From Cyclobacterium xiamenense (GTDB taxonomy: Bacteria; Bacteroidota; Bacteroidia; Cytophagales; Cyclobacteriaceae): a stretch of DNA of 49,339 nt. The translations under genes were made by a program, and so were the position numbers. The notes below the pieces were generated by a model that saw only the letters and a list, made by a program, of their open reading frames with translations, did not search any database and was not told where the DNA came from. The stretch spans positions 1 through 49,339 of the forward strand of contig NZ_WIOK01000036.1 in the NCBI RefSeq assembly GCF_009467825.1, read 5' to 3'. Below, one piece after another: positions 14,660 to 39,164 of the stretch. Every line of letters starts with the position of its first letter. Position 1 is the first letter of the stretch.

Positions 14660-16939
14660 TTAATAACACACGATGCCAAACAACGCAGCCGGCGTGGTAG
14701 CAGAGGGATGTTCCAGCATGATTTTTAGGGATTGGGTGGTAACAGCCTCGTCGAAGCGAAGGGTAAAACAGGACTGATGGTTGTCGCGAACCTGGGTTAA
14801 CCGATTCCCTTGGTGGTCCGAAATGGAAAAACGCTGCACACAAAAAGGAACCACGTGTTCGGGATGGCCCATTAGGGTAGACTCCAGCGCATGGTCGTAA
14901 TCCGAATCAAAGAACAACTTTATTTCTCTGATTTCCTGTTCACTATCCCACCTTAATTCAACAGAAGGTTCAGTATCATCGAGGGCGGCAGCCCAGGCAT
15001 TGCTCTGGCTACTTGGCCGAAAAATACCATTGCATAAATTTTCCGCGCTAAACATCTGCACGGAACGGTCCAGTTCAAATCCCAGATTGTGTCCATCGGG
15101 CCGACGTTCGGGCAGCCAAAAGTCAAAGGAATCCATCCCAATACCCTCCGGAGGCTCCTGCCGGCTGCTGGTAGCCACGGCTTTATTAAATTTCTGAAAA
15201 ACACTCAAAAGACCCGTCAATCGCGTATTTGAAGTCTTGATTTGTACTAAATCATTCGCAGAAAAGGCAACAAAATAATATTCTGAATTTTTTATAGTAC
15301 ACTCAAAATCAATTAGTAATGTTGATTCACCAGAAGCAATTTCGAATTCCTTTTCCGCTAAAATAAGCTCTGGCGTAAAGTTTCCCTTCCGTTTGCTTCC
15401 CATTAACGAAACTCGGAGTTGGGCGGCTTCCGAGCTCTTCAGCCGTACACGAATGCCCGGCACCTCCCCCTCTGTAAGGGGAAGCAACTGTGCCATGGCA
15501 AACTCCAACGACTTCCAGGGCCCATTCATGGGAAGGCCCTGCAACCGATAGGTAGAAGAGGGTCGCAGCGTTGCCTGTCGGGCCAGTTCCGCCTCATCGG
15601 ACAAGCGCAATCCGGGAATGTATTGCCCTGACCGAATCAGGCGGTTTTGCAAAATTTTCATCCGTGAAGGCGCAAGTAGATCGGCAGGAAGCAGCTTGCT
15701 TTCCCGGCACAAAACCGCAGCCATGGCAACAGCCTGTGCGTTGTGTGCACCGGTAGCCATCACACGGGTAGAACCAAAAGCCACGTGGCTACTGCTGACG
15801 ATTCTTCCTGCAAGGAACAGGTTCTTCAGGTTTCGGCTGTACATGATCCGGTAAGGAATCTGGTACACTCCCTTGGTATGCCATTGGGTACAGCCTGGCA
15901 AGTCACCGTAGACCCCATCTGCCGGATGCAGGTCCAAAGCCCAGCCCCCAAAAGAAACCGCATCCTCAAATTGGCGCTGCTGGACCAGGTCTTTTTGCGA
16001 CAACATGTAGTCGCCCTCAAAACGGCGGCTTTCCCGTTTTCCCGGGATGGTACCCACCCATTCGAGCGTATGGGTAGCCATCTCGGGAAACTCCCCGGAA
16101 TTTTTGAGGTGATCCCAAATACCGTAGATTACGCGCCAAAGTTCCCATTTGATCGTTTCGGACTCATGAACGGTATCCTTCCTTCCTCCGTACTCCACCC
16201 ACCATAGCCGGCAGCCATGGTCCTTGAGGTTAAAGGATTTAAAGCGGGGTAGTTTTTCGATTTCCCGATTGGCATACGAAGGAGGAACAAAGCGTACGGG
16301 CTTACCGGTATCCTTACTGTAGAAATACAGGCTGTGTCCCAGCAGTTCCCCGTAGGTATCATCCGGTGCAAATGGCTCGTCAAATTCATCCGCCGATTCG
16401 GCCCCAATCCGAAAGGCCGCTCCGGCCAAAAAAGCCATGGAGCCGTCGCCGGATGCATCCACAAACAGGGGAGCTTTCAACAGGTATTCCGTAGCGTTCT
16501 GGCTGCAAAAAGCCAATGCCGATTCGATGGTGTCCGGACTACTTTTTACCAGGTCGTACATGGCCGTATTCAATAGCAGTCGGATGCCGGGTTCGTTGCT
16601 TACCATTTCAATTAAAATGGTATCCAGAATCAGCGGATTGCCTTCCGGATTGCGGTATAAATTCTCCAGGAGAATCTCGTCGATAACCCCTCCTTCCCTG
16701 GCCCAACGGTTGTTATTACCCATATGAGAGGTTGCACCCAGGATCCAGAGTCGGATCTCAGACGATCCGTTCCCGCCCAGAACCGGTCGGTCCTGAACCA
16801 GCACGACCTGCAAGCCCTGCCTGGATGCCGTAATGGCACAGCAGGTACCGGCCATACCGCCTCCGATGATCACCAGGTCGGCCTGGCATTCCTCCCGTTT
16901 GAAACTTCTCTTTCTACTACTAAACGCTTCTTTTTTCAT
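14660..16939 (-). CDS. Cytoplasmic FAD-dependent oxidoreductase (PF12831-type) with C-terminal sandwich domain
   Basis: 759 residues from the ATG at 16939; an in-frame TTG at 16957 overlaps the upstream gene and is less likely. No signal peptide. The FAD-binding start is ADLVIIGGGMAGTCCAITA (GxGxxG), followed by DRPVLGGNGSSEIRLW, then APLFVDASGDGSMAFLAGA, GKRESRRFEGDYMLSQ and the late FAD segment NLFLAGRIVSSSHVAFGSTR. After about residue 450 the family core ends; the C-terminal part contains FDFWLPERRPDGHNLGF and a discoidin-like stretch. Substrate unknown; such proteins occur next to glycan-degradation genes and sugar or cyclitol oxidation is plausible. It starts 4 bases after the symporter gene, which suggests it acts on the imported compound. 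Close paralogue at 43862-46147. Confidence 0.85.
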   Translation of the reverse strand: MKKEAFSSRKRSFKREECQADLVIIGGGMAGTCCAITASRQGLQVVLVQDRPVLGGNGSSEIRLWILGATSHMGNNNRWAREGGVIDEILLENLYRNPEGNPLILDTILIEMVSNEPGIRLLLNTAMYDLVKSSPDTIESALAFCSQNATEYLLKAPLFVDASGDGSMAFLAGAAFRIGAESADEFDEPFAPDDTYGELLGHSLYFYSKDTGKPVRFVPPSYANREIEKLPRFKSFNLKDHGCRLWWVEYGGRKDTVHESETIKWELWRVIYGIWDHLKNSGEFPEMATHTLEWVGTIPGKRESRRFEGDYMLSQKDLVQQRQFEDAVSFGGWALDLHPADGVYGDLPGCTQWHTKGVYQIPYRIMYSRNLKNLFLAGRIVSSSHVAFGSTRVMATGAHNAQAVAMAAVLCRESKLLPADLLAPSRMKILQNRLIRSGQYIPGLRLSDEAELARQATLRPSSTYRLQGLPMNGPWKSLEFAMAQLLPLTEGEVPGIRVRLKSSEAAQLRVSLMGSKRKGNFTPELILAEKEFEIASGESTLLIDFECTIKNSEYYFVAFSANDLVQIKTSNTRLTGLLSVFQKFNKAVATSSRQEPPEGIGMDSFDFWLPERRPDGHNLGFELDRSVQMFSAENLCNGIFRPSSQSNAWAAALDDTEPSVELRWDSEQEIREIKLFFDSDYDHALESTLMGHPEHVVPFCVQRFSISDHQGNRLTQVRDNHQSCFTLRFDEAVTTQSLKIMLEHPSATTPAALFGIVCY

Positions 16940-16943
16940 TGAC

Positions 16944-18635
16944 TCACTTCTTGACAACTAATTGATTTTTTGCTTCTCTTCTTTTTTTGGACAAGCGGAT
17001 CAGGCCAACTCCTAACAGGACAATCAGAACCCCCAGAAAAAACAGGTAGAAACGAGCCGATCCAGCCAGCATTCCCAGGGAAACAAACAATAATCCCATA
17101 CTCATAAATGCCCAGCCCAATACCTGTATCCCGTAGGTATTCTGCCGTTCACCCGAGGCAGCCGAAAGGGCCGCTTGTTCGGCTGTAAGCATCGATTCTT
17201 GCACCACCTCTGCTACCGGAAGCAAGCTGCTCCGACGCTGCCGTACGTACGTTTCCACGAGGCCAAGCAACAGAAGGGGTAGAAAAACACCTACCAACAT
17301 TTCACTGCTGCGGTCCAGGGAAAATGAAAACAAACCCGGGGAAATAAATTTGAAATACACATTGATCAGCAGGCTGATCCCGGTAACGAACAAAATGTGC
17401 CTGCCCGCTAATTTTTTGGAAAACAAGCCCCATATCGCCGGGGCATACAAGGCGCCGCCCGTAATGGCGCCTATGCTCAGCACCACCTCCACAATACCTC
17501 CAGCCATGGGGACCATAAAAGCCACCCCAATCGTACCCAGGCCAAACAGCAGGGTAGCTACCCGCGCTACTTGCATCAAACGCCGATTGCCGGCAGCCGG
17601 GAACAAGGGCCGGTATACATCGTTCGTCAGGACGGCAGCAGCCAGGTTTAGCGAGGTGTTGACCGAACTGGCCGTGGCAAAAATCATCCCGCCCAGCATC
17701 AAACCCAACATCCCTGCAGGCAAAACGTTCATGCACATCATCAGGTAGGCTCCTTCCGTCTCCAAACCCGTCAGTCCGGGATTGATGACCCGGTAAATCA
17801 TGGGCGGCAGCATCCAAATCAGCGGACTGATCAGGTAAAGGCCTCCAAATAGGAACCCTACCTTCTTCGCAGCAGCCTGGTCTTTGACTGCGGTGTACCG
17901 CTGCACATAGGCCCAGTTTCCACCGATAAAAATGGTATTGTAACCGATAAATGCGAGAATAAACCCGGGCGTGTAGGTATCGTTGAACAGGTGAAAGAAT
18001 TTTTCCGGTGCCTCCTGAACGAACCTGCCCCAGCCCCCTACGGTCTCCAGGGACAAAGGCAAAACGATTAGCACCGCTGCCGTCAACACAACAAATTGCA
18101 ATACGTCGGTGACCACCACCGCCCACAATCCCCCGACCGCGGTATATACCATGATTAAGCCCCCAAGCAGCAAGATGGAATAGTAGATATTAAACCCGGT
18201 GACCACGTTCAGAATCTTTGCTACCGGATACAAAAAAGCCCCGGTATACCCCAGGGATAGCACCAGAAATAGAAAGGTGTAGTAGCGCTGCGTATTTTTG
18301 CCAAACCGTTGGGTCAGGTAGGCTGCCACCGTTAGCGCATTCGTACGTTTCCAACGAGCTGCCAGAAACGTGCCGATCAAAAATCCGCTGATGCACATGG
18401 CCATCTGTATTGTGATGGCCACCCAGCCCCATTCGTAGGCGATGGAGCCCCAAACCACAAAAGTGCCGGCCGAGAAAAAGCTCATAAAGAGGGACAGCCC
18501 ACTGATGGACCAGGGCACTGCCCCTCCTGCTGCAAAAAACGATTTCATGTCGGCGCCTTGCTTTCCAAAGGACAAACCGGCAATCAAAATAATCCCCGTA
18601 AATACACCTATTGTCAAAAAATCAAGTAGTTCCAT
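16944..18635 (-). CDS. Sodium:solute symporter (SSS family)
   Basis: A 563-residue inner-membrane protein with about 13-14 hydrophobic segments. SSS hallmarks are FAAGGAVPWSISGLSLFMS, TAVGGLWAVVVTDVLQF, the segment IFIGGNWAYVQRYTAVKD, and MLGLMLGGMIFATASSVNTS. It should import a small solute with Na+, most likely the monosaccharide or modified sugar released by the extracellular enzymes. The C-terminus is cytoplasmic and basic (LSKKRREAKNQLVVKK). It is embedded in the operon with 4-base gaps on both sides, between the exported and the cytoplasmic FAD oxidoreductases. Confidence 0.93.
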   Translation of the reverse strand: MELLDFLTIGVFTGIILIAGLSFGKQGADMKSFFAAGGAVPWSISGLSLFMSFFSAGTFVVWGSIAYEWGWVAITIQMAMCISGFLIGTFLAARWKRTNALTVAAYLTQRFGKNTQRYYTFLFLVLSLGYTGAFLYPVAKILNVVTGFNIYYSILLLGGLIMVYTAVGGLWAVVVTDVLQFVVLTAAVLIVLPLSLETVGGWGRFVQEAPEKFFHLFNDTYTPGFILAFIGYNTIFIGGNWAYVQRYTAVKDQAAAKKVGFLFGGLYLISPLIWMLPPMIYRVINPGLTGLETEGAYLMMCMNVLPAGMLGLMLGGMIFATASSVNTSLNLAAAVLTNDVYRPLFPAAGNRRLMQVARVATLLFGLGTIGVAFMVPMAGGIVEVVLSIGAITGGALYAPAIWGLFSKKLAGRHILFVTGISLLINVYFKFISPGLFSFSLDRSSEMLVGVFLPLLLLGLVETYVRQRRSSLLPVAEVVQESMLTAEQAALSAASGERQNTYGIQVLGWAFMSMGLLFVSLGMLAGSARFYLFFLGVLIVLLGVGLIRLSKKRREAKNQLVVKK

Positions 18636-18639
18636 TCAA

Positions 18640-20463
18640 TTAGTTTTGGGGCAGAGTTGGTAAGTTGTAAATGGTGACTGGCGATTCGATGATGTCCATA
18701 AATTCGTTCAGGTGCATGGTGTATACTTCCCTGGGGCTGGCATTGTTTTTCCTGGCCACAAACGCTGCATAGCCCACGGCCTCTCCCATCATCCCACAGG
18801 TACGCATTACCCGGGTACTGCCGAAGGCCACGTGGGTGGTGCTGATATTCCTGCCGGCCATGTATAAGTTGTCGATGTTTCGTGAATACAGGCAGCGGTA
18901 GGGAATGGTGTAGGGCTGTACTTTGATGTGTTTGGTCGCAGCAAAGAATTCCTCACCCTTAAAATATTGGGAGTTTTTGGCATCGGGAAAGTGCAGGTCG
19001 ATCGTCCAGGTAGCGGTCACGCTGCCATCGGGATACATGATGCCGTCCTGAATATCCATTTGGGTCAGAACATGGTCGCCCATCAATCGCCGGGACTCCC
19101 GCTTCCCTCCAATATAAGCCACCCAGGCCAATTCATGATGGCTGTATTTGTCGGCTTTCTCGTTTTTCAGGTAGGACCAGTTGCCGTAAATCGCCCGCAA
19201 ATTATGGTCGCGGATCTGTTCGGCTTCGTAGATGGTATGGAAATTTCCAAAACCGGTCTCCCACTGCCAGTCGGCCTTGTGATCGTCTATGTGGTACTCG
19301 TCGGAAAACTGGATGGCCCAGGGCGTCTCGGGGAAATCAGAAGGCGCTTCCCGCTCCAGGGAAGCCCAGAGGTTGGAGGTACCCAAAGTGAAGTCATCCG
19401 GATTTTCCGGGGCCAGGGACTCGCCGGTTTGTTCGCGACTTTCCCGGCCCATGCGGTATTCGGCTCCCGCCAGAAAACCCAAAGTGCCATCTCCGGTGCA
19501 GTCCGAAAAGTAGACTCCTTCAAACCGGTATTCCTGATTGGTGGCGATATCCCGGCCAATTACTGCTTTGATCGTATTGTCCTCCATTTCCACCTCGTAC
19601 ACGTGTGTATTCAGGTGAAGGGAAATATTGGGTTCGGATCGCACGATCTGCAACTTGCGCTCGTCCCCATACCGGGCAGCATCCGGATTTCCGTTACCCG
19701 GATCGCCGTTGTCCAGTTCCCGAACAATCCTTCCGAGCTTGGGATAGTGATTTTGATCTACGCGGCCCATTAGGTGCACACGAATTTCCGAGCTGTTGTT
19801 ACCTCCCAATACGGGACGGTTTTGAATCAGTGCCACTTTTAACCCCATGCGGGCACCGGATATGGCCGCGCAGGTGCCGGCCATGCCCCCACCTACCACT
19901 ACCAGGTCAAACTTCCCCACGTTTTCCGGACCGTCAGTCAGGTTCAGTAATTCCTTGCGAAAAGTAAGCAGGGCCTCGTTGTCGTTGGTCGGGACGTCGT
20001 CTTTGTCGGTGGAAAAATAAATCGCATCAAAGCGTCCGTTGAACCCGGTAAGATCCTCCACTTCCAGGCTGTTTTCTCCGGCATCCATCTGAACGGTTCC
20101 CCCGTAATACCAGTCCCATTCGGCCATGCCACTTACCCCAAAGGTGGTCTGTAAAGGCGCTCCATTGATGGCGAGTGTAAATGCTCCCGGTCCCGTAGGA
20201 AACGGTGCCCAATCCTTGGTCCGTACCCAGACATGGTATTCGCCTCCACTGCTGAAATCAACCGTGGTATGGGCATTCTCCACCGGTCTTCCCATACCGT
20301 GGGCCATCAGGTAGGAGGAATACAGCACATCAAAGGACTGTTGGTCGATCACCCAGCCTCCGATGTTGTCAAATGATTCGGCCTCTACCAGTACCCGGTT
20401 TTGTGCCTGTGTGAAAAGCGCCAGCCCGACTAGCAGCGCAAGGGTTAAATATATTCGTTTCAT
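18640..20463 (-). CDS. Exported FAD-dependent oxidoreductase with N-terminal jelly-roll domain
   Basis: A 607-residue protein with a signal peptide (ALLVGLALFTQAQ). Residues about 22-152 form a carbohydrate-binding or golvesin-like beta domain (RVLVEAESFDNIGGW, GEYHVWVRTKDWAP, NSLEVEDLTGFNGRFDAIYF). The FAD domain begins at FDLVVVGGGMAGTCAA (Gly191-Gly196), followed by NRPVLGGNNSSEIRVH, CTGDGTLGFLAGAEYRMG, GGKRESRRLMGDHVLTQ and NLYMAGRNISTTHVAFGSTR. Databases often label such proteins 'xanthan lyase', which I consider unsupported. Because it is exported it needs an electron acceptor outside the cytoplasm; the neighbouring FMN protein, 11 bases upstream in the operon, is the obvious candidate. 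Substrate unknown. Confidence 0.85.
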   Translation of the reverse strand: MKRIYLTLALLVGLALFTQAQNRVLVEAESFDNIGGWVIDQQSFDVLYSSYLMAHGMGRPVENAHTTVDFSSGGEYHVWVRTKDWAPFPTGPGAFTLAINGAPLQTTFGVSGMAEWDWYYGGTVQMDAGENSLEVEDLTGFNGRFDAIYFSTDKDDVPTNDNEALLTFRKELLNLTDGPENVGKFDLVVVGGGMAGTCAAISGARMGLKVALIQNRPVLGGNNSSEIRVHLMGRVDQNHYPKLGRIVRELDNGDPGNGNPDAARYGDERKLQIVRSEPNISLHLNTHVYEVEMEDNTIKAVIGRDIATNQEYRFEGVYFSDCTGDGTLGFLAGAEYRMGRESREQTGESLAPENPDDFTLGTSNLWASLEREAPSDFPETPWAIQFSDEYHIDDHKADWQWETGFGNFHTIYEAEQIRDHNLRAIYGNWSYLKNEKADKYSHHELAWVAYIGGKRESRRLMGDHVLTQMDIQDGIMYPDGSVTATWTIDLHFPDAKNSQYFKGEEFFAATKHIKVQPYTIPYRCLYSRNIDNLYMAGRNISTTHVAFGSTRVMRTCGMMGEAVGYAAFVARKNNASPREVYTMHLNEFMDIIESPVTIYNLPTLPQN

Positions 20464-20474
20464 GGTTTGGTTAT

Positions 20475-21593
20475 TTACTGGTTTGTTTCGGTATACTTCT
20501 TCAATGCTTTCTTTGTCGCTGCAGCGGGATTGGATTGGCTAGCTAGTAAGCGGAGCAGCGGCTCCTCCCATTTCCCTTGCTGCAGGTAGGACAAGGCCAA
20601 ATCCTGCTGTTCCTTGCTTAATGCGGCTTGCTTTTCCAGTACGGAAAGAATCGCTCGCTGCTGTGCGGGGTTACTTGCCTCCAGCTCCTGCAGCAACTGC
20701 GTCACCAATGGGGAACGCAGGGACAGTGTCCGAAGCCGATCCAGAATGTCCATTTGCATGCGGTAAGGGCTTTGTTGGTAGGTATCCCAGAGCCATTGTT
20801 GCCTGGCCTCACTGGCAAACAGGCTTTCTGGCAGGACGGCTAGCATGTGCCGGGCGAGGAAAATATTTTTACCCCGAAGCTGTGCCAGCAGGGCTGCTGC
20901 GAAGGGCTGCTCGTTTTCTTTCCCCTGCGCTTGTATGCGTTCCAACGCCCAGTATTGGTAGGGATAATGCTCGCTCTGTAAAAACCGCAGCAGGGTTTCA
21001 TCGGTGTGGTTGGCTACCGTATGCGCCTTTGTTTCTTCGGTCAGGGGTCCATGCGCCAGGTGCCAGAGCGTGTAACAGGAATATACCGCCCCTGAGATAA
21101 CTTCGCTCTGGATGGTTTTGGAGGTAGCCCCTGTGACGGCATCCACCCCATTATTGCTGCCGACCGTCTCCGTACTCACTACCAAATCCGTGATGGAATA
21201 GTCTCCCAGAATGGAGCGTTCGTTGGCCAGAATTGCCTGCAATTTTTCATAATCCTTCTCTTCGAAGGGAACATGGTCCAGCTTGGTCAATATTTCTCCC
21301 TCCGGCATCTCAAAACGATCAAAATTCCCCAACAGGTCCCAAAAAAGATTGATGTACACAGGATAACACTTATTGGTATGGCATACCGGTGTGAAAAGCT
21401 CGGCCATGTACTCCTGAGCCAACCCATCGGTGTCATCGATCACAAACAGCTCGTACCGGATCGAATCGGTCTCTACCTGCCCGATCAGGCGACGCGTGCC
21501 GTCACCCAAATCTGCAGGGAGAGGCAATACCGCTCCGAGGCAAATCAGCAGTACGATACCAAGGGGTATTATTTTCGAATAGGGGTCAATCAT
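20475..21593 (-). CDS. Membrane-anchored covalent-FMN protein with helical C-terminal repeats
   Basis: A 372-residue protein with one N-terminal hydrophobic segment (residues 8-26) that is either a signal peptide or an anchor. Residues 147-160 read SNNGVDAVTGATSK, the D-x-x-T-G-A-T/S motif on which ApbE-type flavin transferases attach FMN, here to Thr157. Two cysteines lie close together at Cys71 and Cys76 (CHTNKC). Residues about 185-372 are all-helical and resemble HEAT-type repeats. FMN-binding domains of this type in RnfG, NqrC and fumarate or urocanate reductases pass electrons to or from FAD or quinone partners. Placed between the 848-residue lipoprotein and the exported FAD enzyme, it may serve as the electron carrier for the latter. 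No apbE gene is in the window. Confidence 0.75.
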   Translation of the reverse strand: MIDPYSKIIPLGIVLLICLGAVLPLPADLGDGTRRLIGQVETDSIRYELFVIDDTDGLAQEYMAELFTPVCHTNKCYPVYINLFWDLLGNFDRFEMPEGEILTKLDHVPFEEKDYEKLQAILANERSILGDYSITDLVVSTETVGSNNGVDAVTGATSKTIQSEVISGAVYSCYTLWHLAHGPLTEETKAHTVANHTDETLLRFLQSEHYPYQYWALERIQAQGKENEQPFAAALLAQLRGKNIFLARHMLAVLPESLFASEARQQWLWDTYQQSPYRMQMDILDRLRTLSLRSPLVTQLLQELEASNPAQQRAILSVLEKQAALSKEQQDLALSYLQQGKWEEPLLRLLASQSNPAAATKKALKKYTETNQ

Positions 21594-21619: not shown

Positions 21620-24166
21620 TTATTCGTAGCTAAGCTGGGCAGTCGCCTCGCAGTTTTTGTCCGCCACCAGCCGGATCCAGCGGGCTTCCAGTTCGTCCGG
21701 GAAGGTTTCCCGATAGGTCTCTCCGGGCGAAACCTGCACCTGCTTCCAATCCATCCAGGGGCCGTGGCCAATGGGTTCAAATTGAATGGTAAAGGTGACC
21801 GGTTCGGGGGAATTGTGGCTGAGTGCCAATTGTCGCCGGTCATAGAAAGCAAACAAATACGGGTCGGATGGAACCCCCGGTTTAACGGGGCTTTGGGCCC
21901 AGGGGCCACCCTTTCCGGTAGGTTTGCCCAGTTTCCATAAGTCGTCGATCACTCCGGCCCAAACGGCAAGTTCACCGTCCTCCGATACAATGATGTGATC
22001 GTTGGTTTCGGCTGCCTCCGGGTTCGCACCGGTAAGCAGCAGCATGCCCCTGTAGGAAGCGTAATCGTTGATGCGCAATGTATGGGAAGCGACGGGGCGG
22101 ATCTTCGCAAATCCGTCGGCATTTTCGGCCGGCAACTCATAGAACGTACCATGGCAATTGAACAGGTCCCGTTCGGTAGCTACTTCGCGGGCAATGCGCA
22201 GCTTGCCTTCCAGCGAGGGTCCCGTAAACGCTTCGTCTCCTTTCGGTAGCCGCCACCTTCTGCCCCGGTCGTCGGTTATCAGCACGGATGCTGCAACCAC
22301 CTCGAATACATTTTCGGGAATGGCAAAGCCCTTGTTGATAAAGGCCTCGGTTTCGGGATCGTCTACCCGGACCAATTGGAGTTTCTCGTCCATTTCATAA
22401 TAGCCGGCATTTTCAGTGCTTTCGCCCTGATAACGCCTGGCAGCAATGCCCAGTTTTCGTCGGTTGTCGCCCAGTCCGTACAACAGTCCACCCGTAAATT
22501 CATCTTCCTCAATGGAACGAATCCCTTGAAAAATATTCTCTTGATAGGCCGATCGGGTTTCCGGATTGGAAAAAGAAACATGCACAGTGGCCCGGGTTGC
22601 TACATCGCTTTGGACCCGGATCCATTCCCCTTTCGTATCCTGATCGAAGGAAAGCCAGCTACTTTCAGCTCCGTCCAGGGAAACTAGTTCCAGTTCTTCC
22701 CATTCTCCCTTACCTGACCTATCAATTTCAAGGGTGAAAGTTACTGCCTTGTCACCCTGGTTTTGCAGCCATACATTCTTCTCCTGCCAGCCCGAAAACA
22801 ACATGGGTTCGGAGGGTTCATTGGCACCTACCTGCTCCTCGAGCCAGAGGGCACCGTTGGCGGTGGCCGGTCCCAATTTATCCGGCATATCCATATCGGT
22901 AAACCAGAGATTGGAGTTGGATTGACCGGGGCCTTCGATGTTTCCTTTTGCACTACGCTTGTTGAGAAACTCGCGCTGAGCGGAATCATCGCAGCCGAAA
23001 ACCAATCCGTCCTGCCAGCGTGTAAAATCGCCGATGACCTTCAAGTAGGCCGATCGGGGCCGGATACCGGCAGTCTGGCCCTTCTGGAAGGTCTCCGGAA
23101 ATTTCCAAAACATGCCGTGCATGGTCATCAGGTAATCCGGTGCTTCCTCCGTGCCCACATCCCGGATGCGGGGCCATTCGGTATTCCAGCCATGGGCACC
23201 GTCGTAACTGTGGCTGGCTTTGGGAAGTCGAAAAAACTCCCAACCTTCATCTGCGTCCCGTACCCCAAGGATTACCGATTTGTGATCCCATCCGGTGGCC
23301 CAAATCGGGTCGGTATCCGGATTTGGGTTACCATAAATTCCCCCCGGGCCTGTCACTTCCACAAATTGATTTCTTCTGACCAAGTGCCAATCAATACCGT
23401 CCCATTCGTACAGGGCTCCAGCTTCTATAGAAAAATCCTTAAGGGCTTCCTGACCGGTCTCTCCGTTGTTTGAGTAGACCATTACCCCCTGTCCGGAATA
23501 AAGCCCTTTTCCATGGGCTCCCAGCAGCAATTCCGCTTCCTGCGCCATTTCCCCTTCTTTGCGGGTTACATTCCCGTCTACGTGTAAGGTCTTGGTTTCC
23601 AGGCTGTGCACATCCACTTCGTAAAAACCCTCCTCCATGGTACCGTAATAGATCATATTGGCCGGGTCCGTCAGATGCCTTGCATTTCCGGTATGGCGGC
23701 CCGGCATGGTTTCATACGAGATGGCTCGCACATTACCGGTTTTGTCAATGGCATAGGGGCCAATAAACAGTTGCTCGCTTTCCTTGTGTATCATCCGGTT
23801 GGCCGGGGTTCCGCCTATGCTTTCTTCCCGGGTGGTAAAACTCAGATCCGGATTGATCGCATAGAGTTTATCCGATGAGCCGAAAGGGAAATGGGGACCA
23901 TAGGTCACCACCCAAAGCTTATCCGCCCAGGGCACTACGGCACCGGTGCCACATTCGCCTTCCTCGTTGTAATAGGCCAGGTGGGGATAGATGCCACTTA
24001 TGGAGGGGTGGTAGTTGGAAACCAACGAAGCATTGCTTCCGGAATCACAACCAAACCCGAAAACGAGAAAGACAATGCCCCCTATAAAAACATCCTTTAT
24101 AGCGATCGACCCTAACACGACTTGATTGATCTTAAACATAAGGTGAATAACAAATAATTTATTCAT
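21620..24166 (-). CDS. Large lipoprotein of unrecognised family, probably beta-rich
   Basis: An 848-residue protein with a hydrophobic lead-in and lipobox FGFGC (Cys40), so it should be lipidated and face the periplasm or the cell surface. An alternative ATG at 24139 would shorten the leader to a more usual length. The body has many short strands with Trp and Gly and suggests propeller repeats: DKLWVVTYGPHFPFGSSDK, PDYLMTMHGMFWKFPE, DLFNCHGTFYELP, and near the end FEPIGHGPWMDWKQVQV with ARWIRLVADKNCEATAQL. Two later segments (about 480-560 and 770-848) look like similar sandwich domains (ELVSLDG...WIRVQSDVATRATVHV versus VSPGETY...WIRLVADKNCEATAQ). I do not recognise a catalytic motif. It lies inside the operon, 30 bases after the dioxygenase gene. 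Confidence 0.7.
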   Translation of the reverse strand: MNKLFVIHLMFKINQVVLGSIAIKDVFIGGIVFLVFGFGCDSGSNASLVSNYHPSISGIYPHLAYYNEEGECGTGAVVPWADKLWVVTYGPHFPFGSSDKLYAINPDLSFTTREESIGGTPANRMIHKESEQLFIGPYAIDKTGNVRAISYETMPGRHTGNARHLTDPANMIYYGTMEEGFYEVDVHSLETKTLHVDGNVTRKEGEMAQEAELLLGAHGKGLYSGQGVMVYSNNGETGQEALKDFSIEAGALYEWDGIDWHLVRRNQFVEVTGPGGIYGNPNPDTDPIWATGWDHKSVILGVRDADEGWEFFRLPKASHSYDGAHGWNTEWPRIRDVGTEEAPDYLMTMHGMFWKFPETFQKGQTAGIRPRSAYLKVIGDFTRWQDGLVFGCDDSAQREFLNKRSAKGNIEGPGQSNSNLWFTDMDMPDKLGPATANGALWLEEQVGANEPSEPMLFSGWQEKNVWLQNQGDKAVTFTLEIDRSGKGEWEELELVSLDGAESSWLSFDQDTKGEWIRVQSDVATRATVHVSFSNPETRSAYQENIFQGIRSIEEDEFTGGLLYGLGDNRRKLGIAARRYQGESTENAGYYEMDEKLQLVRVDDPETEAFINKGFAIPENVFEVVAASVLITDDRGRRWRLPKGDEAFTGPSLEGKLRIAREVATERDLFNCHGTFYELPAENADGFAKIRPVASHTLRINDYASYRGMLLLTGANPEAAETNDHIIVSEDGELAVWAGVIDDLWKLGKPTGKGGPWAQSPVKPGVPSDPYLFAFYDRRQLALSHNSPEPVTFTIQFEPIGHGPWMDWKQVQVSPGETYRETFPDELEARWIRLVADKNCEATAQLSYE

Positions 24167-27938: not shown

Positions 27939-29486
27939 CTAGCGGGTATTTGGTATTGGCCAGCTTTCCACTCCTGATTCGTATGCCCACTGATTCCACC
28001 TATTTTTCAGGCTATCTTTCACGATCGAAGGCGATTCTTTTGTTTCATATGGATCTCTCGTTAGGTTATACAACTCCCAGTCTTTTTCATACATCTGAAC
28101 GAGTTTAAATCCATTATTCCAAACGGCTTTATTGCCCTGATGCTCCCAAAAAAGAACCTGATGGTGGTTTTCCTTGGTACCCGATATCAAACCCAAAAAA
28201 CTCTTGCCGTCAAAATCCCCCTTTTCCAACGAAATACCCGCTATATCCAACATAGTAGGCATAATATCAATGATATGGATTGGTTCCTTGATTACTTTTC
28301 CATTTGATTTGGGGTCGCTTGGCCAGGAAAATAGCAAAGGGGTCCGAATTCCACCCTCGTAGGTTTCGCTTTTATACGATCTGAAGGGTGTATTGCTGAC
28401 GTTTGCCCAATGCATTCCGTAAGACACGAATGAATCGGCGCATCCTATCGGCGCATCCGCAGACCTATTTACCTCTTCCCTACTCGCACCATTATCGGAC
28501 AGGAAGACGATTACCGTATTCTCATATACGCCTAAATTTTTTAACTGAGCGATTAGGCTTCCGATATTTCGATCCAACCGATCCACCTGCGCCGCATATA
28601 CTTGCATTTTTTTAGTCTCTTCTGCTTTGTTTTCCACCGTTTCCCACGACGGAAACTCGGGCAAACTTATTTCAATATCATCCGACACGATACCCAGTTT
28701 TTTTTGCTTTTCAAACCGCCTGGATCGTATGAATTCATATCCCTGATCATAGACGCCGTTGTATTTTTTAATGTCCTCAGGTAGCGCCTGTAGGGGAAAA
28801 TGGGGGGCAATATAGGCCAGGTAGGCAAAAAACGGTTTTTGATCCAACACCGCCTCTTCAATAAAGCTATTGGCTTCCGATGTAAAATTATTCGTTGAGT
28901 AAAATGATACGGAGTCAGGGAAAACCTGTTTCTGATTTCTGTAAATGGGTCGCTCTAAATATTTTGAGGGGTAAAAATACAAGCCTCCGCCGGCAGGTAT
29001 TCCGTAAAATCGGTCAAAACCCCTTTTATCGGGCCAGTGGATTCTTTCATTTCCTACGTGCCATTTTCCGGTCATTATTGTTCTATAGTCTTGATCGCGA
29101 AAGGCTTCGGCTATAGTAGTAACATTTTCAGCGAGAAAGCCTTGGTAAGAAGGCAATCCCAGATCGCTGTCCATGTGACCGATCCCGGCTTTATGTGAAT
29201 ACAAACCAGTCAACAGGCTTGCCCTGGAGGGGCAGCACCTGGAAGCATTGTAACAAGCGGTAAACAAGACCCCATTTCTGGCCAGTTTATCCAGATTAGG
29301 CGTAAGGATTTCGGAACCGGTAATTCCCAGATCGGAATACCCCATGTCGTCCGCTAGAACGATGATTACATTCGGTGGATTCTTGACTTCTTCCCTATTC
29401 ACACAGGAAAATAAAACCAAAAATACCAGAAAGTCAGCGAAATTTCGCCTGCTTCGTTTCCATATTCTATAGACGTTTTTCCGCAT
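27939..29486 (-). CDS. Sulfatase (formylglycine type), lipoprotein
   Basis: A 515-residue S1-family sulfatase. After a hydrophobic segment the lipobox LFSC (Cys28) suggests surface or periplasmic anchoring. The catalytic core shows VLADDMGYSD (metal ligands Asp46 and Asp47), the formylglycine signature CCPSRASLLTG with Cys84 as the modified residue, TGKWHVGN, and FLSDNGASREE. It should remove sulfate esters from a glycan, in line with a marine polysaccharide target. The maturation enzyme is not in the window. It follows susD by 163 bases containing a hairpin, so it may be transcribed from SusCD with some attenuation. The subfamily (S1_4 or other) cannot be fixed by eye. Confidence 0.93.
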   Translation of the reverse strand: MRKNVYRIWKRSRRNFADFLVFLVLFSCVNREEVKNPPNVIIVLADDMGYSDLGITGSEILTPNLDKLARNGVLFTACYNASRCCPSRASLLTGLYSHKAGIGHMDSDLGLPSYQGFLAENVTTIAEAFRDQDYRTIMTGKWHVGNERIHWPDKRGFDRFYGIPAGGGLYFYPSKYLERPIYRNQKQVFPDSVSFYSTNNFTSEANSFIEEAVLDQKPFFAYLAYIAPHFPLQALPEDIKKYNGVYDQGYEFIRSRRFEKQKKLGIVSDDIEISLPEFPSWETVENKAEETKKMQVYAAQVDRLDRNIGSLIAQLKNLGVYENTVIVFLSDNGASREEVNRSADAPIGCADSFVSYGMHWANVSNTPFRSYKSETYEGGIRTPLLFSWPSDPKSNGKVIKEPIHIIDIMPTMLDIAGISLEKGDFDGKSFLGLISGTKENHHQVLFWEHQGNKAVWNNGFKLVQMYEKDWELYNLTRDPYETKESPSIVKDSLKNRWNQWAYESGVESWPIPNTR

Positions 29487-29649: not shown

Positions 29650-31374
29650 TTAATACCCCCCGGGATTTTGGGTAATGCTAGCACCATTGGCCCTATAGGT
29701 ATCGATTTCGGCCTGTGGAATGGGTAGCAAGTAATCTCTAGGATTGGCGAATACCCGAATCGCATTGGGAAAACGAGCATCCGTATTGAGATCGTATTGA
29801 GATTCGATTCCCGCGTAGGATACAAAACCATCTTCATCGATATCCGGTACATGTTCGGCGTTAGCTTCATCCAAAATTCTTCCATACAAAACCACCGGCA
29901 TCACCTTGTCGGCAATATTCCAGCGGCGAATATCAAACAGCCGGAATCCTTCGTTGGCAAATTCCACTTTTCGCTCCCTTTTGATCAAGCTTCGGAGAAA
30001 TGACTGGTCCATGGACGTAACGGCTGGATAGCTGTCTGTCGCTTCCACTGGAACTCCGTATGCTCTTGCCCGTACCCGATTCAACGCCTCGTGTACCGAG
30101 GCATCGATTTCATTGAGTTCTATCTTGGATTCGGCATAGTTTAACAAGACCTCTGCGTACCGCATTAATGTGAAGTCTGTATCGCTCCAAAATCGATTTT
30201 GAAGTTGGGATTCAACGTTGGTATATTTTTTCCACAAATACCCGCAAAAAGCAGCTGGCCAGATCACGGTCCTGGAATCGTTGTTCCTACCCCTGATCGT
30301 TCCATCCACATTTCGTACCTCCAGGCTATCGGGGTGGCTTTCGAAAATGATTCCTCCCCATTCACTCTGCGGTGTAATGATCGAGGCTTTCAACCTCGGA
30401 TCACGGTTTTCAAACGGGCTTTTTGGGTCGTATACTGCGGATTCATCTATTGGTAACCCATCGGTAGCTTCGTAACTATCGATCATGGATTGGGTCGGTA
30501 CGACCACGCTATATGCTCCAAAATTCCTGGAACCTTGGGCGACTGAAAAGTTTGGGAGGGTTCCAAAACCATCTCTGAACGGCATTGCCAAAATTGCTTC
30601 TGCGGAACCCTCTCCCTGGGGTGTGAACAACTCTTCATAGTTCGGGTGGAGGTTTAGGTTTCCGCCATTAATTACTGCTTGGGCCGAGGTAGCAGCCTCT
30701 CCATACCTCCCAGCATACAGTGCAATCCTTGAGTGCAACGTAAGCGCAACATCCCTGAATACCCGATTACTTTCCTCCACGTTTGCTGGTAAATTCTGGG
30801 CGGCCTCTTGAAGATCGGCCATCAGATTGTCAATTATCTGCTCTTTGTCTACCCGCGGCAAAAGTGCATCCAGGGGATTTGCTATCACTGTTTCTGTGTA
30901 GGGCACATCACCAAATAGAAATACCAGGTAATGGTAAAAATAGGCTCGCAACACCATTGCCTCATACTTTATTTGGTTTAACCGCTCAGCGGATACTACC
31001 TCGGCGGCCCGATCCAAATTGTTAATCAGGTTATTGGCTCGGCCGATACCCCGGTACATATGGGTGTAAATATTTAAAAAACCTCCACTATTTGCACTGT
31101 GAGAACCGGCTCCCAATTCGTCAAAGCTGCTAAAACCTCCCCTAACAAGCCCAATATCTGTGGCTCCGTTGTCCATATTTACCTGTACCGGCAGGTTGTA
31201 TCCTCCCAGCCAAATCAATGAGTTATAAACTCCTGTGAGTGCCAGGTCTAATTCCTCCTCGTTGGAAAAAAAGGTGGCATCCGTTGGTTCTGTAAGCGAT
31301 TCCAAATCCAACAAGTCGGAATCACATGCTGAAATCATAAACAATGCTACTATAAAATAGATGAATTTTTTCAT
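29650..31374 (-). CDS. SusD/RagB-family glycan-binding lipoprotein
   Basis: A 574-residue surface lipoprotein; the signal ends in the lipobox ISAC with Cys17. It has the N-terminal SusD pattern (LTEPTDATFFSNEEELDLAL, YRGIGRANNLINNLDRA, EAMVLRAYFYHYLVFLFGD) and the C-terminal RagB pattern (TDFTLMRYAEVLLNYAES, LIKRERKVEFANEGFRLFDIRRW, DYLLPIPQAEIDT). It forms the lid of the SusC channel and binds the oligosaccharide before import. It follows susC by 12 bases. Confidence 0.97.
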   Translation of the reverse strand: MKKFIYFIVALFMISACDSDLLDLESLTEPTDATFFSNEEELDLALTGVYNSLIWLGGYNLPVQVNMDNGATDIGLVRGGFSSFDELGAGSHSANSGGFLNIYTHMYRGIGRANNLINNLDRAAEVVSAERLNQIKYEAMVLRAYFYHYLVFLFGDVPYTETVIANPLDALLPRVDKEQIIDNLMADLQEAAQNLPANVEESNRVFRDVALTLHSRIALYAGRYGEAATSAQAVINGGNLNLHPNYEELFTPQGEGSAEAILAMPFRDGFGTLPNFSVAQGSRNFGAYSVVVPTQSMIDSYEATDGLPIDESAVYDPKSPFENRDPRLKASIITPQSEWGGIIFESHPDSLEVRNVDGTIRGRNNDSRTVIWPAAFCGYLWKKYTNVESQLQNRFWSDTDFTLMRYAEVLLNYAESKIELNEIDASVHEALNRVRARAYGVPVEATDSYPAVTSMDQSFLRSLIKRERKVEFANEGFRLFDIRRWNIADKVMPVVLYGRILDEANAEHVPDIDEDGFVSYAGIESQYDLNTDARFPNAIRVFANPRDYLLPIPQAEIDTYRANGASITQNPGGY

Positions 31375-31386
31375 GGTGTTTTCTGG

Positions 31387-34300
31387 TTAAAAGGTTAGAC
31401 TGGCTCCGAAAGTATAGGCTCTGGCAATTGGGAAAAATGCCCCGGAACTACCGTTTGGAGTTAGTGGGTTGGTTCCTTTAGGAAGCCTGTTAAAATTGGC
31501 CAGATTTTGGATCGAAGTGTAAACCCGTAAACTCCTTGCTTTTAATCTATCCTTGAAGGTGGGGAAGTTATACCCCAAACTTAAATTTCGAATGGCAAGG
31601 TAGGATGCATCAAATACCCACACATCGGAAGCTCTCGCATCATTGCTACCAGAGCTTGTAGGCGCAAGTACCGGAATCCTGGCATTTGGCCTCTCAGGAG
31701 TCCAGGATTCTTCCACATGCCATTCTTGCACCTTCCCCGCATTCCACAAGGGCATGATCGCATCACCTTGCAATAACAAATCCCTTTTTCCTACTCCTTG
31801 AAACATCAGCGCAAAATCAAAACCTTTGTAATCCGCCGTCAGGTTTAACGCATAACTGTACCTGGGAAAAGGATCCCCGATGATTACCCTGTCATCGGGG
31901 TTAATGACCTCGTCCGGGGAATCATTTATCCCGTCCCCATTCGTATCCAAGGTAGGTTGATCCACGTATCTGATGTTGCCTGGAATAAGGGCTCCGAATT
32001 GATTGGGAGCATTGTCGATTTCTTCCTGATTCTGAAAATACCCCATGGATTGGTACCCGAATATCGAACCAATAGGGCTTCCTGTGGTGGTAATCGAGTT
32101 TCCACTGATTATCTGTCCCAGGCCACCCAGACTAGTCACCTCATTTTTCACGTCGGAAAAGTTGAAGTTCGCACTGTAATTAAATTGCCCAATTGCATCC
32201 CTCCAATTGATATTGAAATCAATCCCTCTATTTTCAACAGATCCTACGTTTTGAAGAGGAGCACTCAAGCCCACTACTCTGGGTACAGGCAATGCCAATA
32301 AAATATCGTTGGTCGTCCGGACATAATATTCAACCGTAAAGGTCAACTGGTTATTGATCAGGCCCGCATCCAATCCGATATTTGCTGTTTCCGCTGACTC
32401 CCATCGAATTCCGCGGTTGGCCAATACATTTTGTGCAGCACCTGTTGCGACGTTGTCACCGAAAATAAAATTCGATGCCCCCAGAAGAATGTTGGAGGTA
32501 TACGGGAAATCACTACCAATTTGCTGATTCCCCAGCCTGCCCCAGGAAGCCCTTAACTTGAACTCTGTAAAGAAATCTAAGGGACTGAAAAATGCTTCTT
32601 CCGTCAAACGCCAGCCTGCAGAAAATGACGGGAATATGGATACCCGGTTTTCCGGTGCAAATCTTGAGGATGCATCCCTTCGTACGTTTGCCTCAAAAAG
32701 GTACTTGTCCAGGTAGGAGTAGTTAAATCGGGAGAAATAGGAAACCAAACTGGAATGCGTAGCTCTTCCACTGTTTCTCATGTTGGTCTCTGCGCCCGCA
32801 TTCAACTGTTCAAACCGATCAATGATAAAATCCGTTCTCGAAGCACCAAATTGCGTCCAATTGGTCTTAATCATTTCGTAACCGCCGAGTATCGTAAATT
32901 GGTGGTCCGCGACGGCTTTGCTATAGGTGATTAGACCGATGAGGTTGTCCTCGAATATTCTGGTATTGGTATTGCTCAGGGAATTTCTATCGGGCACATT
33001 ACGCGTTGACTTTGAGTCCCAATCCAGAATCGTTGTGTACATCTTATTAAAGTTGCGGTCAAAAAGATCTCGGTATTCCGGAGAATACGTTAGACTTACA
33101 TTTAGGCCTTTCACCGGGGAATAATTTACCCGCATCAACCCACGGAAGTAATTATTCTCATTGCGATTGAGTCCCCCATCTGTGGCGTGAGCAATGGGGT
33201 TTTGACCACTCCAACCATCTCCCCAGGATCCATCGGTATGGATGGCAATTTGTGTGGGGTCAATTCTAAAGGCGTCCAGGAAAACGCGATCCAAACCCGA
33301 ATTGGGCTGGGTAGTCAACTCTTGACTAAAATTCAAATCAAACGTCAGATCGAATTTATCGTTGATCTTGATATCGGAATTGAATCGGCCGTTGTACCGC
33401 TTGAAATTGTAATTCTTTACATTGGCCCCCTGATCCGTATAGGAGATGGATCCCATTAGCTGAACGTTTTCCGTTCCACCATTTACAGTGAGGTTATGGT
33501 ATTGCTGGAATCCATTTTCTGAAAACAACAAATCCATCCAATCAGTGTCCGGATAAATGTCGGGGTTTGTCGCCATGTTCTGCTCGTAATTGGCAATCGC
33601 GGCTTCGTCCGTATTAGTCACTCTTAAAAAGTCAATCGCACCCAAATATGACGGTAGCGTTTGAGGCTCCTGCCAACCGGCATAGGTATTGTAGGAAACC
33701 GTCATCGCTCCCGCTTTCCCCCGCTTCGTGGTCACAAGTATGACTCCGTTGGATCCCCTGGAACCGTAAATTGCAGAAGCCGCAGCATCCTTCAATACCG
33801 AAATACTCTCGATATCCGAAGGATCAATGTTATTGATATCTCCTTGAATACCATCTACAAGTACCAAAGGATCATTGGAGGCGCCTAGAGATCCAGTCCC
33901 CCGTACCCGTAAGGTGGCACCATCCGCTCCCGGACGGCTGCTGGACTGGATAGCTGTCAATCCCGGTGTCATTCCGACAAGGGCCTGAGAAGCCTGGAAT
34001 ACCGGTTGGCGGGAAATGGAGGCCCCATCTATGGATTCAACCGATCCGGTTAGATTGATTCTCCGCTGATCTCCGTATCCAACTACTACCACCTCACTGA
34101 GATCACTCATGTCCGCTTGCAAACTAACGTCGATGGCACGTTGGTTCCCAACAGTAATCTCTTGTTTGAAATACCCCAGAAAGGAATACACCAACACCGA
34201 ATTACTGCCCGGCACCTCGATTTGATACCTTCCATCCAAATCCGTCACCGTACCTGAAGTCGAATTCTTTATCAAAATGCAGACCCCAGGCAATGCAGAC

Positions 34301-34407
34301 CCATTTTCGTCGAAGACAGTACCGCTGACCGTGATCGATTGGGCCAGAGAACTGGTCGCGACGACCATTAGGACCAATACAAATAAACTTGGTAAATTTT
34401 TTTTCAT
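31387..34407 (-). CDS. SusC/RagA-family TonB-dependent outer-membrane transporter
   Basis: A 1006-residue outer-membrane protein with signal peptide (LVLMVVATSSLAQ). Residues about 24-100 form the carboxypeptidase-regulatory-like domain (VSGTVFDENGSALPGV). A short linker SEVVVVGYGDQRRINLTGSV leads to the plug with ALVGMTPGL and the SusC signature SISVLKDAAASAIYGSRG. The barrel follows and ends in the aromatic GASLTF. It imports glycan fragments with energy from TonB. Upstream, 122-145 bases before the ATG, is a 24-base operator that matches the one in front of lacI. It is the first gene of the long operon that runs to 12345. Confidence 0.97.
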   Translation of the reverse strand: MKKNLPSLFVLVLMVVATSSLAQSITVSGTVFDENGSALPGVCILIKNSTSGTVTDLDGRYQIEVPGSNSVLVYSFLGYFKQEITVGNQRAIDVSLQADMSDLSEVVVVGYGDQRRINLTGSVESIDGASISRQPVFQASQALVGMTPGLTAIQSSSRPGADGATLRVRGTGSLGASNDPLVLVDGIQGDINNIDPSDIESISVLKDAAASAIYGSRGSNGVILVTTKRGKAGAMTVSYNTYAGWQEPQTLPSYLGAIDFLRVTNTDEAAIANYEQNMATNPDIYPDTDWMDLLFSENGFQQYHNLTVNGGTENVQLMGSISYTDQGANVKNYNFKRYNGRFNSDIKINDKFDLTFDLNFSQELTTQPNSGLDRVFLDAFRIDPTQIAIHTDGSWGDGWSGQNPIAHATDGGLNRNENNYFRGLMRVNYSPVKGLNVSLTYSPEYRDLFDRNFNKMYTTILDWDSKSTRNVPDRNSLSNTNTRIFEDNLIGLITYSKAVADHQFTILGGYEMIKTNWTQFGASRTDFIIDRFEQLNAGAETNMRNSGRATHSSLVSYFSRFNYSYLDKYLFEANVRRDASSRFAPENRVSIFPSFSAGWRLTEEAFFSPLDFFTEFKLRASWGRLGNQQIGSDFPYTSNILLGASNFIFGDNVATGAAQNVLANRGIRWESAETANIGLDAGLINNQLTFTVEYYVRTTNDILLALPVPRVVGLSAPLQNVGSVENRGIDFNINWRDAIGQFNYSANFNFSDVKNEVTSLGGLGQIISGNSITTTGSPIGSIFGYQSMGYFQNQEEIDNAPNQFGALIPGNIRYVDQPTLDTNGDGINDSPDEVINPDDRVIIGDPFPRYSYALNLTADYKGFDFALMFQGVGKRDLLLQGDAIMPLWNAGKVQEWHVEESWTPERPNARIPVLAPTSSGSNDARASDVWVFDASYLAIRNLSLGYNFPTFKDRLKARSLRVYTSIQNLANFNRLPKGTNPLTPNGSSGAFFPIARAYTFGASLTF

Positions 34408-37719: not shown

Positions 37720-39159
37720 TCAGCTTAAAAGCGATTTCACCACCGTTCCGTGAACGTCGGTGAGGCGATACCTCCTACCCTGGTGTTTAAAATTTAATCG
37801 CTCGTGATCCACACCCATCAAATGCAACAGGGTGGCCTGAAAATCATGTACGTGTACCGGGTTCTCAACGATATTGTATCCCAGTTCATCCGTCTTTCCG
37901 TAGGAATATCCTTTTTTTACGCCTGCCCCAGCCATCCACATCGAAAAGCACTTCGGATGGTGATCCCGGCCGTACGTAGTCTTGGTTATCTGACCCTGTG
38001 AATAACTGGTTCTCCCAAATTCACCTCCCCATATGACCAGCGTATCGTCCAAAAGCCCCCGTTGTTTCAAATCCCGAATCAGTCCTGCTGTGGGCTGATC
38101 CGTACTTCTTGCCATGGTTTGAATATCGTTGGGAAGGTTTCCATGCTGATCCCATCCTTTATGGTACAATTGAATAAATTTTACATTTTTCTCCGCCAAT
38201 CTTCTGGCCAAAAGGCAATTGGCTGCGTAGGTACCCGGAATATGCACGTCGGGCCCGTATAAGTCCAGGACATGTTCTGGTTCTCTAGAAATATCCATGG
38301 TTTCTGGAACCGATGTTTGCATGCGGTAAGCCATTTCGTATTGAGCTATTTTGGAATTGATTTCCTCGTCGGGATTGGATTGAAACGCATGTTCATAAAG
38401 GGCTTTCAAATGACCCATGTACCTGGAACGTTGACCCCTTCCCACACCCGATGGATCATTCAAGTAAAGTACCGGGTCTTTACCCGAACGGAACTGCACG
38501 CCTTGATACTGAGAAGGCAAAAAACCATTGCCCCACAACCTTCCGTAGACGGGTTGCGCACCCGATCTTCCCTTGGAGACCAGGACACAAAAAGCTGGCA
38601 AATTTTCATTGTCACTTCCAAGGCCGTAACTCACCCAGGACCCTATGGAGGGTCTACCTGCTTGCTGAGAGCCCGTCTGGAAAAAGGTAATCGCCGGGTC
38701 GTGGTTGATCGCCTCCGTATGGAGTGATTTGATGACACAAATTTCGTCCGATATAGATGCGATATGCGGCAAAAGTTCACTGATGTACAAGCCGGATTCC
38801 CCCCGTCTTTCGAAGCCAAATCTCGATCCGATCATCGGAAGCGACTGCTGCCCTGCCGACATGCCTGTTAATCGTTGTCCTTGTCGAACCGAGTCAGGAA
38901 GCTGCTCGCCAGTTCGCTTGATCAACTCGGGTTTAAAGTCAAATAATTCAAACTGTGACGGACCACCGCTCTGAAATAAATAGATGACTCGCTTCGCCCT
39001 GGGAGGAAAATGAGTTCCATCCATACCCGGGTCCGGCAAGGCCTGAGAAGAAAGGGGGTTCACCAAACTGGCTAAGGCCATTCCTCCTATTCCCAAACCG
39101 GCTTTGGTAAGAAACTCTCTTCTGGAATAGTGGTTCACCTGGGAACACAAATCTGCCAT
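37720..39159 (-). CDS. DUF1501 protein, Tat-exported
   Basis: A 479-residue protein whose N-terminus has a twin-arginine motif (SRREFLTKAGLGIGG, Arg13-Arg14), so it is probably exported folded. It matches the sulfatase-like DUF1501 family: RVIYLFQSGGPSQFELFDFKP, GESGLYISELLPHIA, KSLHTEAINHDPA, GSWVSYGLGS, LWGGEFGRTSYSQG, GRDHHPKCFSMWMAG and the closing HDFQATLLHLMGVDHERL. Members nearly always stand next to a DUF1549/DUF1553 gene, as here (5-base gap). Biochemical function is not established to my knowledge; the pair is abundant in Planctomycetes and is seen with sulfated-glycan loci. Confidence 0.92.
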   Translation of the reverse strand: MADLCSQVNHYSRREFLTKAGLGIGGMALASLVNPLSSQALPDPGMDGTHFPPRAKRVIYLFQSGGPSQFELFDFKPELIKRTGEQLPDSVRQGQRLTGMSAGQQSLPMIGSRFGFERRGESGLYISELLPHIASISDEICVIKSLHTEAINHDPAITFFQTGSQQAGRPSIGSWVSYGLGSDNENLPAFCVLVSKGRSGAQPVYGRLWGNGFLPSQYQGVQFRSGKDPVLYLNDPSGVGRGQRSRYMGHLKALYEHAFQSNPDEEINSKIAQYEMAYRMQTSVPETMDISREPEHVLDLYGPDVHIPGTYAANCLLARRLAEKNVKFIQLYHKGWDQHGNLPNDIQTMARSTDQPTAGLIRDLKQRGLLDDTLVIWGGEFGRTSYSQGQITKTTYGRDHHPKCFSMWMAGAGVKKGYSYGKTDELGYNIVENPVHVHDFQATLLHLMGVDHERLNFKHQGRRYRLTDVHGTVVKSLLS

Positions 39160-39164
39160 ATCGG

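Follow-up and report, generated by a model that had tools for sequence, protein, structure and literature searches.

A Candidate Flavinylated Carrier for Exported FAD Oxidoreductases in Glycan Loci of Bacteroidota

Covalent flavin carriers and exported flavoenzymes

Proteins that carry covalently attached FMN have been described in respiratory complexes, in reductases, and in iron uptake. The flavinylated urocanate and fumarate reductases combine FMN_bind and FAD_binding_2 domains, and they run electrons from the membrane via the covalent FMN to the FAD enzyme. Exported FAD sugar dehydrogenases, such as glucoside 3-dehydrogenase, pass electrons to cytochrome c. The glycan machinery of Bacteroidota, for its part, is usually described in terms of hydrolases, lyases, and sulfatases.

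The ApbE motif is D-x-x-[S/T]-G-A-[S/T], with FMN attached to the last residue, as given in PMC12052999. Two ApbE-substrate families, DUF2271 and DUF3570, were recognized first from apbE gene clusters and confirmed later at the bench, according to PMC8238504. The known flavinylated FAD enzymes are described in PMC10979944 as reductases that use different acceptors in anaerobic respiration. Our search of openly licensed PMC text found nothing joining covalent-FMN carriers with glycan loci, which is weak evidence that no such description exists; PMC6232662 contains both "ApbE" and "polysaccharide utilization."

A putative flavoprotein gene pair in a putative polysaccharide utilization locus

The window, by which we mean the whole 49,339-nucleotide stretch of Cyclobacterium xiamenense DNA that was analyzed, contains a single minus-strand gene run, reading from 42416 down to 12345, that includes both genes considered here. 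The run begins with a PSD1/PSCyt1 protein, a DUF1501 protein, and a protein without a Pfam match, followed by a SusC-like TonB-dependent receptor with Plug and carboxypeptidase-regulatory domains (31387..34407), a SusD-like protein (29650..31374; SusD_RagB, E of 5e-48), and a sulfatase (27939..29486; Pfam E of 6.5e-65). Its middle part encodes a protein with a weak GH88 hint only, a PhyH-type oxygenase, and a large protein that no Pfam model matches over the cut-off. Then come the gene for a 372-amino-acid protein of an unnamed family, our carrier candidate (20475..21593), and that for a 607-amino-acid FAD oxidoreductase of Pfam family PF12831, apparently exported (18640..20463). A sodium:solute symporter family protein (16944..18635; Pfam SSF, E of 5e-36), a second PF12831 protein, and an F5/8 type C domain protein that looks GH9-like complete the run, and every gene in it lies on the minus strand.

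The initial annotation had described the pair as part of a SusCD operon, with the two genes 11 bases apart. SusC and SusD homologues do lie upstream on the same strand, and the FAD oxidoreductase frame follows the 372-amino-acid frame directly at that distance. With SusC/SusD and glycan-active genes in one run, the window appears, from its gene content, to hold a polysaccharide utilization locus.

Several other products of the window deserve mention. At 37720-42416, upstream of SusC in the same minus-strand run, lie genes for two proteins that are a familiar combination in planctomycetes: the DUF1501 protein and a PSCyt1/PSCyt2/PSD1 protein. The latter has a cytochrome-type domain and might be one more redox component of the locus. 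Two large conserved proteins (21620-24166 and 25019-27889) match no Pfam family over the cut-off, and homologues of both are found again beside the pair in many relatives, so placed that they may serve as pointers to the substrate. Two PF12831 proteins besides the partner, of 765 and 761 amino acids (14660-16957 and 43862-46147), are 62% identical and have no obvious signal peptide; they may act in the cytoplasm as the equivalent of the exported enzyme.

An unnamed family with a flavinylation motif

The 372-amino-acid protein matches no Pfam family at an E of 1 or below, FMN_bind (PF04205), DUF2271, and DUF3570 included, and its matches in NCBIfam and PHROGs are insignificant. Judged by alignment, it is a member of a real, unnamed Bacteroidota family. 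All 33 members of an alignment deduplicated from 54 hits conserve Cys71, Cys76, Trp85, Leu102, Phe110, Tyr115, Asp151, Gly155, Thr157, and Ala169, and among the 54 sequences of another set Cys71, Cys76, Asp151, Ala156, and Thr157 are invariant and Gly155 is nearly so. The motif and the cysteine pair are not products of chance, because Cys71, Cys76, Trp85, Asp151, Gly155, and Thr157 are retained in 33/33 aligned, deduplicated members.

The motif itself, DAVTGAT, occupies 21123..21143 on the minus strand. The initial annotation had singled out DAVTGATS with Thr157 as a covalent-FMN site; the sequence is present, and it fits the published ApbE motif, with FMN predicted on Thr157 (PMC12052999). 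The Cys71/Cys76 pair (Cys71-x4-Cys76; 21366..21383, minus strand), also pointed out there, is likewise present and unchanged throughout the 33-member alignment. Closer to the N terminus, a hydrophobic helix at residues 8-22, seen in the structure model (21528..21572, minus strand), is a signal peptide or an anchor; a cleaved signal and an anchor look alike here, and 108 of 113 family open reading frames (ORFs) pass a simple hydropathy rule at the N terminus.

The motif varies among relatives. Position 4, Ser or Thr in the published consensus, is Ala in 32 of the 82 ORFs of a set of 80 loci (DAKAGAT in 28, DVKAGAT in 4); a linked apbE accompanies 24 of these 32 ORFs, and the loci of the other 8 have none. 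One copy in the same set reads DAVTSAT. We strongly infer that the 372-amino-acid protein carries a covalently attached flavin.

Of 296 genomes sampled from the phylum, 8 contain the family, that of the window counted; of 194 sampled from the order, 22 do. Three weak profile hits (G002, G016, and G541; E of 2e-5 to 8e-4) were dropped, as they covered the helical part only; without them, the family occurs in 8/395 phylum-sample genomes instead of 11/395. In a GTDB contig set, 226 stretches with the family were confirmed, from which the best 80 were kept, so that the 80-locus set is biased toward near kin. The rows of the family tree and of the ApbE tree include Cyclobacteriaceae, Spirosomataceae, Cytophagaceae, Chitinophagaceae, Sphingobacteriaceae, and Flammeovirgaceae, and no relatives were confirmed on viral contigs. 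The closest relative on a named contig belongs to Cyclobacterium (65% to C. jeungdonense, with records of the window's own genome possibly left out). The window's genome has three copies of the family, the third of which lies at a contig end (G000:C17:120975-121823, locus L046).

The FAD oxidoreductase partner

The initial annotation had placed an exported FAD oxidoreductase directly after the 372-amino-acid gene, and the product of the adjacent frame fits that description, to judge from a PF12831 (FAD_oxidored) domain behind a signal-like N terminus. The domain spans residues 186-587 (18703..19908, minus strand; E of 4.3e-77) and scores 260.6 bits against a cut-off of 27, covering profile positions 1-414 of 416. 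Between the signal-like start and this domain lies a region without a Pfam name, about residues 22-155 (19999..20400, minus strand), that has conserved tryptophans in the alignment and by eye resembles a carbohydrate-binding domain.

Partners from 110 pairs fall into three types: type A, of about 600 amino acids with the N-terminal domain (92 proteins); type B, of about 640 amino acids (15 proteins); and type C, of about 1050 amino acids (3 proteins). All 18 partners of types B and C have a twin-arginine start, and the hydropathy rule at the N terminus is passed by 73/92 of type A, 5/15 of type B, and 0/3 of type C. From these N termini, the partners look exported.

The type C proteins (L047:9334-12495, L048:9790-12954, and the 1056-amino-acid protein of L227) are exported to all appearances, with Tat-type starts and three PF12831 stretches, and two Rossmann-like starts are seen in each of those from L047 and L048. 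Each of the three adjoins a gene of the FMN-motif family, one copy being in the window's genome, and the system may here exist in a two-FAD form. The same genome also holds four more PF12831 genes close together at G000:C10:113147-123271, with signal-like or lipoprotein-like N termini and a YGGTSAG-type start, and the family search found no FMN-motif gene there.

A co-occurrence search, in which at most four candidates per genome were scored, found near full-length type A enzymes (E below 1e-140) in 7 genomes of apparently the same 296-genome sample, 6 of which have the FMN-motif family. The seventh, G150, encodes a full-length enzyme with a twin-arginine start next to genes that look GH9-like and GH95-like, and no FMN-motif gene was found in that genome. 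The genomes G107 and G154 have the family with type B partners. A different contig of G154 encodes a second exported FAD enzyme, of Tat type, and the ORFs listed around it include no partner. The FAD enzyme can therefore exist without an FMN-motif neighbor, given the partnerless enzymes of G150 and G154.

Conservation and co-inheritance of the pair

The initial annotation had made its reading depend on conservation of the pair in other genomes, and the pair is indeed conserved: a PF12831 gene lies within two genes of 110 of the 113 family ORFs. These ORFs, based on longest-ORF gene calls, come from 111 loci in two overlapping sets, one of 80 loci and one of 32 contexts, and they are not independent, since several genomes are in both sets (e.g., L035 and L091) and one locus (L149) is split in two. 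In the 80-locus set, a PF12831-type gene is the direct same-strand neighbor in 79 loci and, by direct reading, in the 80th (L136) as well. The broader set has it adjacent in 27/32 contexts and within two genes in 29/32; of the three exceptions, L045 and L046 lie near a contig end, and L233 is a genuine one, a family member whose 18 kb contain no FAD gene. Nine of ten neighbors checked against Pfam matched PF12831, the exception being the one beside L045. The FAD gene may precede or follow the FMN-motif gene, depending on the locus; the pair is therefore not one frozen operon.

The family tree (52 members) sorts by partner type. Partner types A, B, and C need three changes on it, with type B forming two clades. 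When two partnerless rows are treated as a fourth state, five changes are needed, against a mean of 18.0 for shuffled labels; five was never reached in 200 shuffles, a test inflated by near-copies. Evidence independent of the shuffle test comes from genomes with two pairs of different types (the window's genome, G162, G423, L118, and L142), in each of which every copy falls in the clade of its own partner type. This tree and the ApbE tree described below are quick searches with SH-aLRT support only.

Linkage to apbE

A search for apbE elsewhere in the genome had also been proposed, and the window's genome does contain one apbE, on another contig, together with one FMN_bind protein. The gene was found in 28/28 carrier genomes searched and in 7/14 control genomes; its presence alone is weak evidence because half of the controls have it too. 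Gene linkage is stronger evidence. In 40 of the 80 loci, apbE belongs to the pair's own gene run and shares its strand, two genes after the FMN-motif gene in 37 loci and directly before a second FMN-motif gene with its own FAD gene in 3; a 41st linked ApbE, in L136, was recognized by eye. The order in G154 is FAD-apbE-FMN.

An ApbE tree of 57 sequences was built from 16 of the 40 linked proteins of the 80-locus set, 7 linked proteins from other genomes, 33 unlinked proteins, and the window genome's own. It places 22 of the 23 linked ApbEs in one clade (SH-aLRT of 100). The linked ApbE of G154 falls elsewhere, and the linkage therefore arose at least twice. An FMN_bind match was absent from 8/28 carrier genomes, of which 7 are among the 27 genomes with completeness of 90% or more and contamination of 5% or less.

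In three loci (L118:11884-12846, L126:11770-12783, and L142:11900-12937), a second FMN-motif gene and its own gene for a 632-amino-acid FAD enzyme follow FAD-apbE in tandem. There, one apbE appears to serve two pairs.

Predicted structure and possible kinship with FMN_bind

A structure model computed from 54 sequences (mean pLDDT of 90.6, pTM of 0.82) has an N-terminal helix, five strands, a helix at residues 152-164 with Thr157 near its start, and after that a helical solenoid; confidence is lower for the residues immediately preceding the motif. In it, the conserved N-terminal domain (residues 31-184; 21042..21503, minus strand) consists of the five strands followed by helices bearing the motif, and the two cysteines sit at the facing ends of a hairpin formed by strands 59-72 and 75-85. 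The solenoid occupies residues 185-371 (20481..21041, minus strand). A helical domain, called HEAT-like in the initial annotation, is thus seen in the model, and the top Foldseek matches are armadillo-type solenoids, albeit weak ones (best E of 0.012). These fill the list for the whole model, with no match at or below 0.001, and for the N-terminal domain alone, no FMN-binding protein is among the 50 matches listed (best E of 0.24).

Profile comparisons bear on kinship with FMN_bind more directly. Searched against the PDB, the family profile finds its best match in 8p2b, a protein with an FMN domain (E of 0.03), and the two motifs align. Against 42 FMN_bind domains (48 loci fetched, less 6 without the motif), hhalign gave probabilities of only 27-53. 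The local match spans the motif for three small groups of the five FMN_bind groups compared, and it misses the motif for the NqrC group and for all groups together.

A proposed two-flavin relay

We propose, with considerable though incomplete confidence, that the 372-amino-acid protein is a flavinylated carrier, bearing covalent FMN, for the PF12831 FAD enzyme and that it represents a new family of ApbE substrates. The pair would form a two-flavin electron relay outside the cytoplasm, as the initial annotation had envisaged, and that reading is supported. ApbE would very probably attach FMN to Thr157; the exported PF12831 enzyme would bind a substrate, and its FAD would exchange electrons with the covalent FMN. 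In the direction that we favor, FAD would take electrons from the substrate and hand them to the FMN, from which they would enter the respiratory chain. The helical solenoid might be the docking surface, which is a guess, and the invariant cysteine pair could form a disulfide with a structural role or act as a second redox center.

The substrate is likely a glycan or a glycan fragment, whose identity may differ between loci. The 86 neighbor proteins scanned, which come from 18 loci and exclude those of SusC size, are led by SusD (10), sulfatase (4), and GH43 (4), and the keto-glycoside family DUF1080 is absent among the 25 neighbor families listed of 104. Of three neighbor enzymes whose profiles were searched against the PDB, the first gave nothing, the second hinted faintly at an unsaturated glucuronyl hydrolase, and the third matched mainly the F5/8-type lectin domain.

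For the carrier reading speak the invariant motif residues, the PF12831 neighbor, the partner-type tree, the linked apbE, the export-like partners, and the glycan-gene neighbors. Against it stand the Ala-4 motifs, the DAVTSAT copy, the partnerless FAD enzymes, the FAD-less L233, and a gene run of the window in which no membrane electron-transfer module is seen. Some of these observations would suit an FAD enzyme that is an ordinary O2-using oxidase, with the neighbor a non-redox accessory and its motif either relic or coincidental: exported FAD enzymes without an adjoining partner occur in G150 and G154, other export-like PF12831 proteins of the window's genome are also partnerless, and motif position 4 deviates in 32 of 82 ORFs. 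Set against the invariance of Thr157 in both alignments, the linkage of apbE in half of the 80 loci, and a co-inheritance specific to partner type, this explanation seems to us very improbable. Within the relay, the direction of flow is a separate matter. The genetic evidence is silent on it, and electrons could run in reverse, with the membrane supplying the covalent FMN and the exported FAD enzyme receiving them from it to reduce an acceptor; the known flavinylated FAD enzymes are, after all, described as reductases (PMC10979944). We lean modestly toward oxidation, because the hosts of the pair are mostly aerobes and because no electron-feeding module is seen in the window's gene run. Together with the setting of glycan degradation, these points make the reverse relay unlikely, if well worth keeping in mind.

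A further alternative leaves the relay intact and concerns its novelty, which would lie in the context only if the 372-amino-acid protein were a very divergent member of FMN_bind (PF04205). The top PDB profile match, the modeled order of strands followed by the motif helix, and the local alignments that cover the motif in three of five FMN_bind groups all speak for such kinship; the lack of a PF04205 match even at an E of 1, the low hhalign probabilities, and the absence of FMN-binding proteins among the 50 Foldseek matches listed for the domain speak against it. We regard this as a serious contender that falls somewhat short of an even chance. More doubtful, and about as speculative as the reverse relay, is the boldest form of our proposal, by which the family would be a new class of ApbE substrates not descended from FMN_bind, forming an FAD-FMN-disulfide relay for extracytoplasmic oxidative glycan breakdown in which the invariant cysteines are a second redox center, with a dedicated ApbE that tolerates a relaxed motif in some lineages.

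Comparison with known systems

The pair and the linked apbE suggest a hitherto undescribed movement of electrons during glycan breakdown outside the cytoplasm. If the carrier reading is true, it adds electron transfer to the glycan-locus machinery of Bacteroidota, gives a function to an unnamed family, and names an electron acceptor for the PF12831 enzymes of glycan loci.

Among described systems, the FMN_bind carriers NqrC, RnfG, and PplA would be alike in being extracytosolic and ApbE dependent, with D-x-x-[S/T]-G-A-T and, as predicted here, FMN on the Thr; the 372-amino-acid protein differs from them in lacking a PF04205 match and in having an invariant cysteine pair, a helical solenoid, and a PF12831 partner. 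The urocanate and fumarate reductases share the use of covalent FMN with an exported FAD enzyme, as predicted for the pair; the pair differs in placing the motif on a separate protein, from another family, and in using PF12831. An enzyme of the glucoside 3-dehydrogenase type would share extracytoplasmic FAD-dependent sugar oxidation with a separate acceptor; the pair differs in its PF12831 family, in an FMN protein in place of the cytochrome, and in neighborhoods whose listed families do not include DUF1080. Finally, DUF2271 and DUF3570 were likewise recognized outside FMN_bind from apbE linkage and the motif (PMC8238504), but the 372-amino-acid protein matches neither of them, and its family is set apart by a glycan-locus context and a constant FAD partner.
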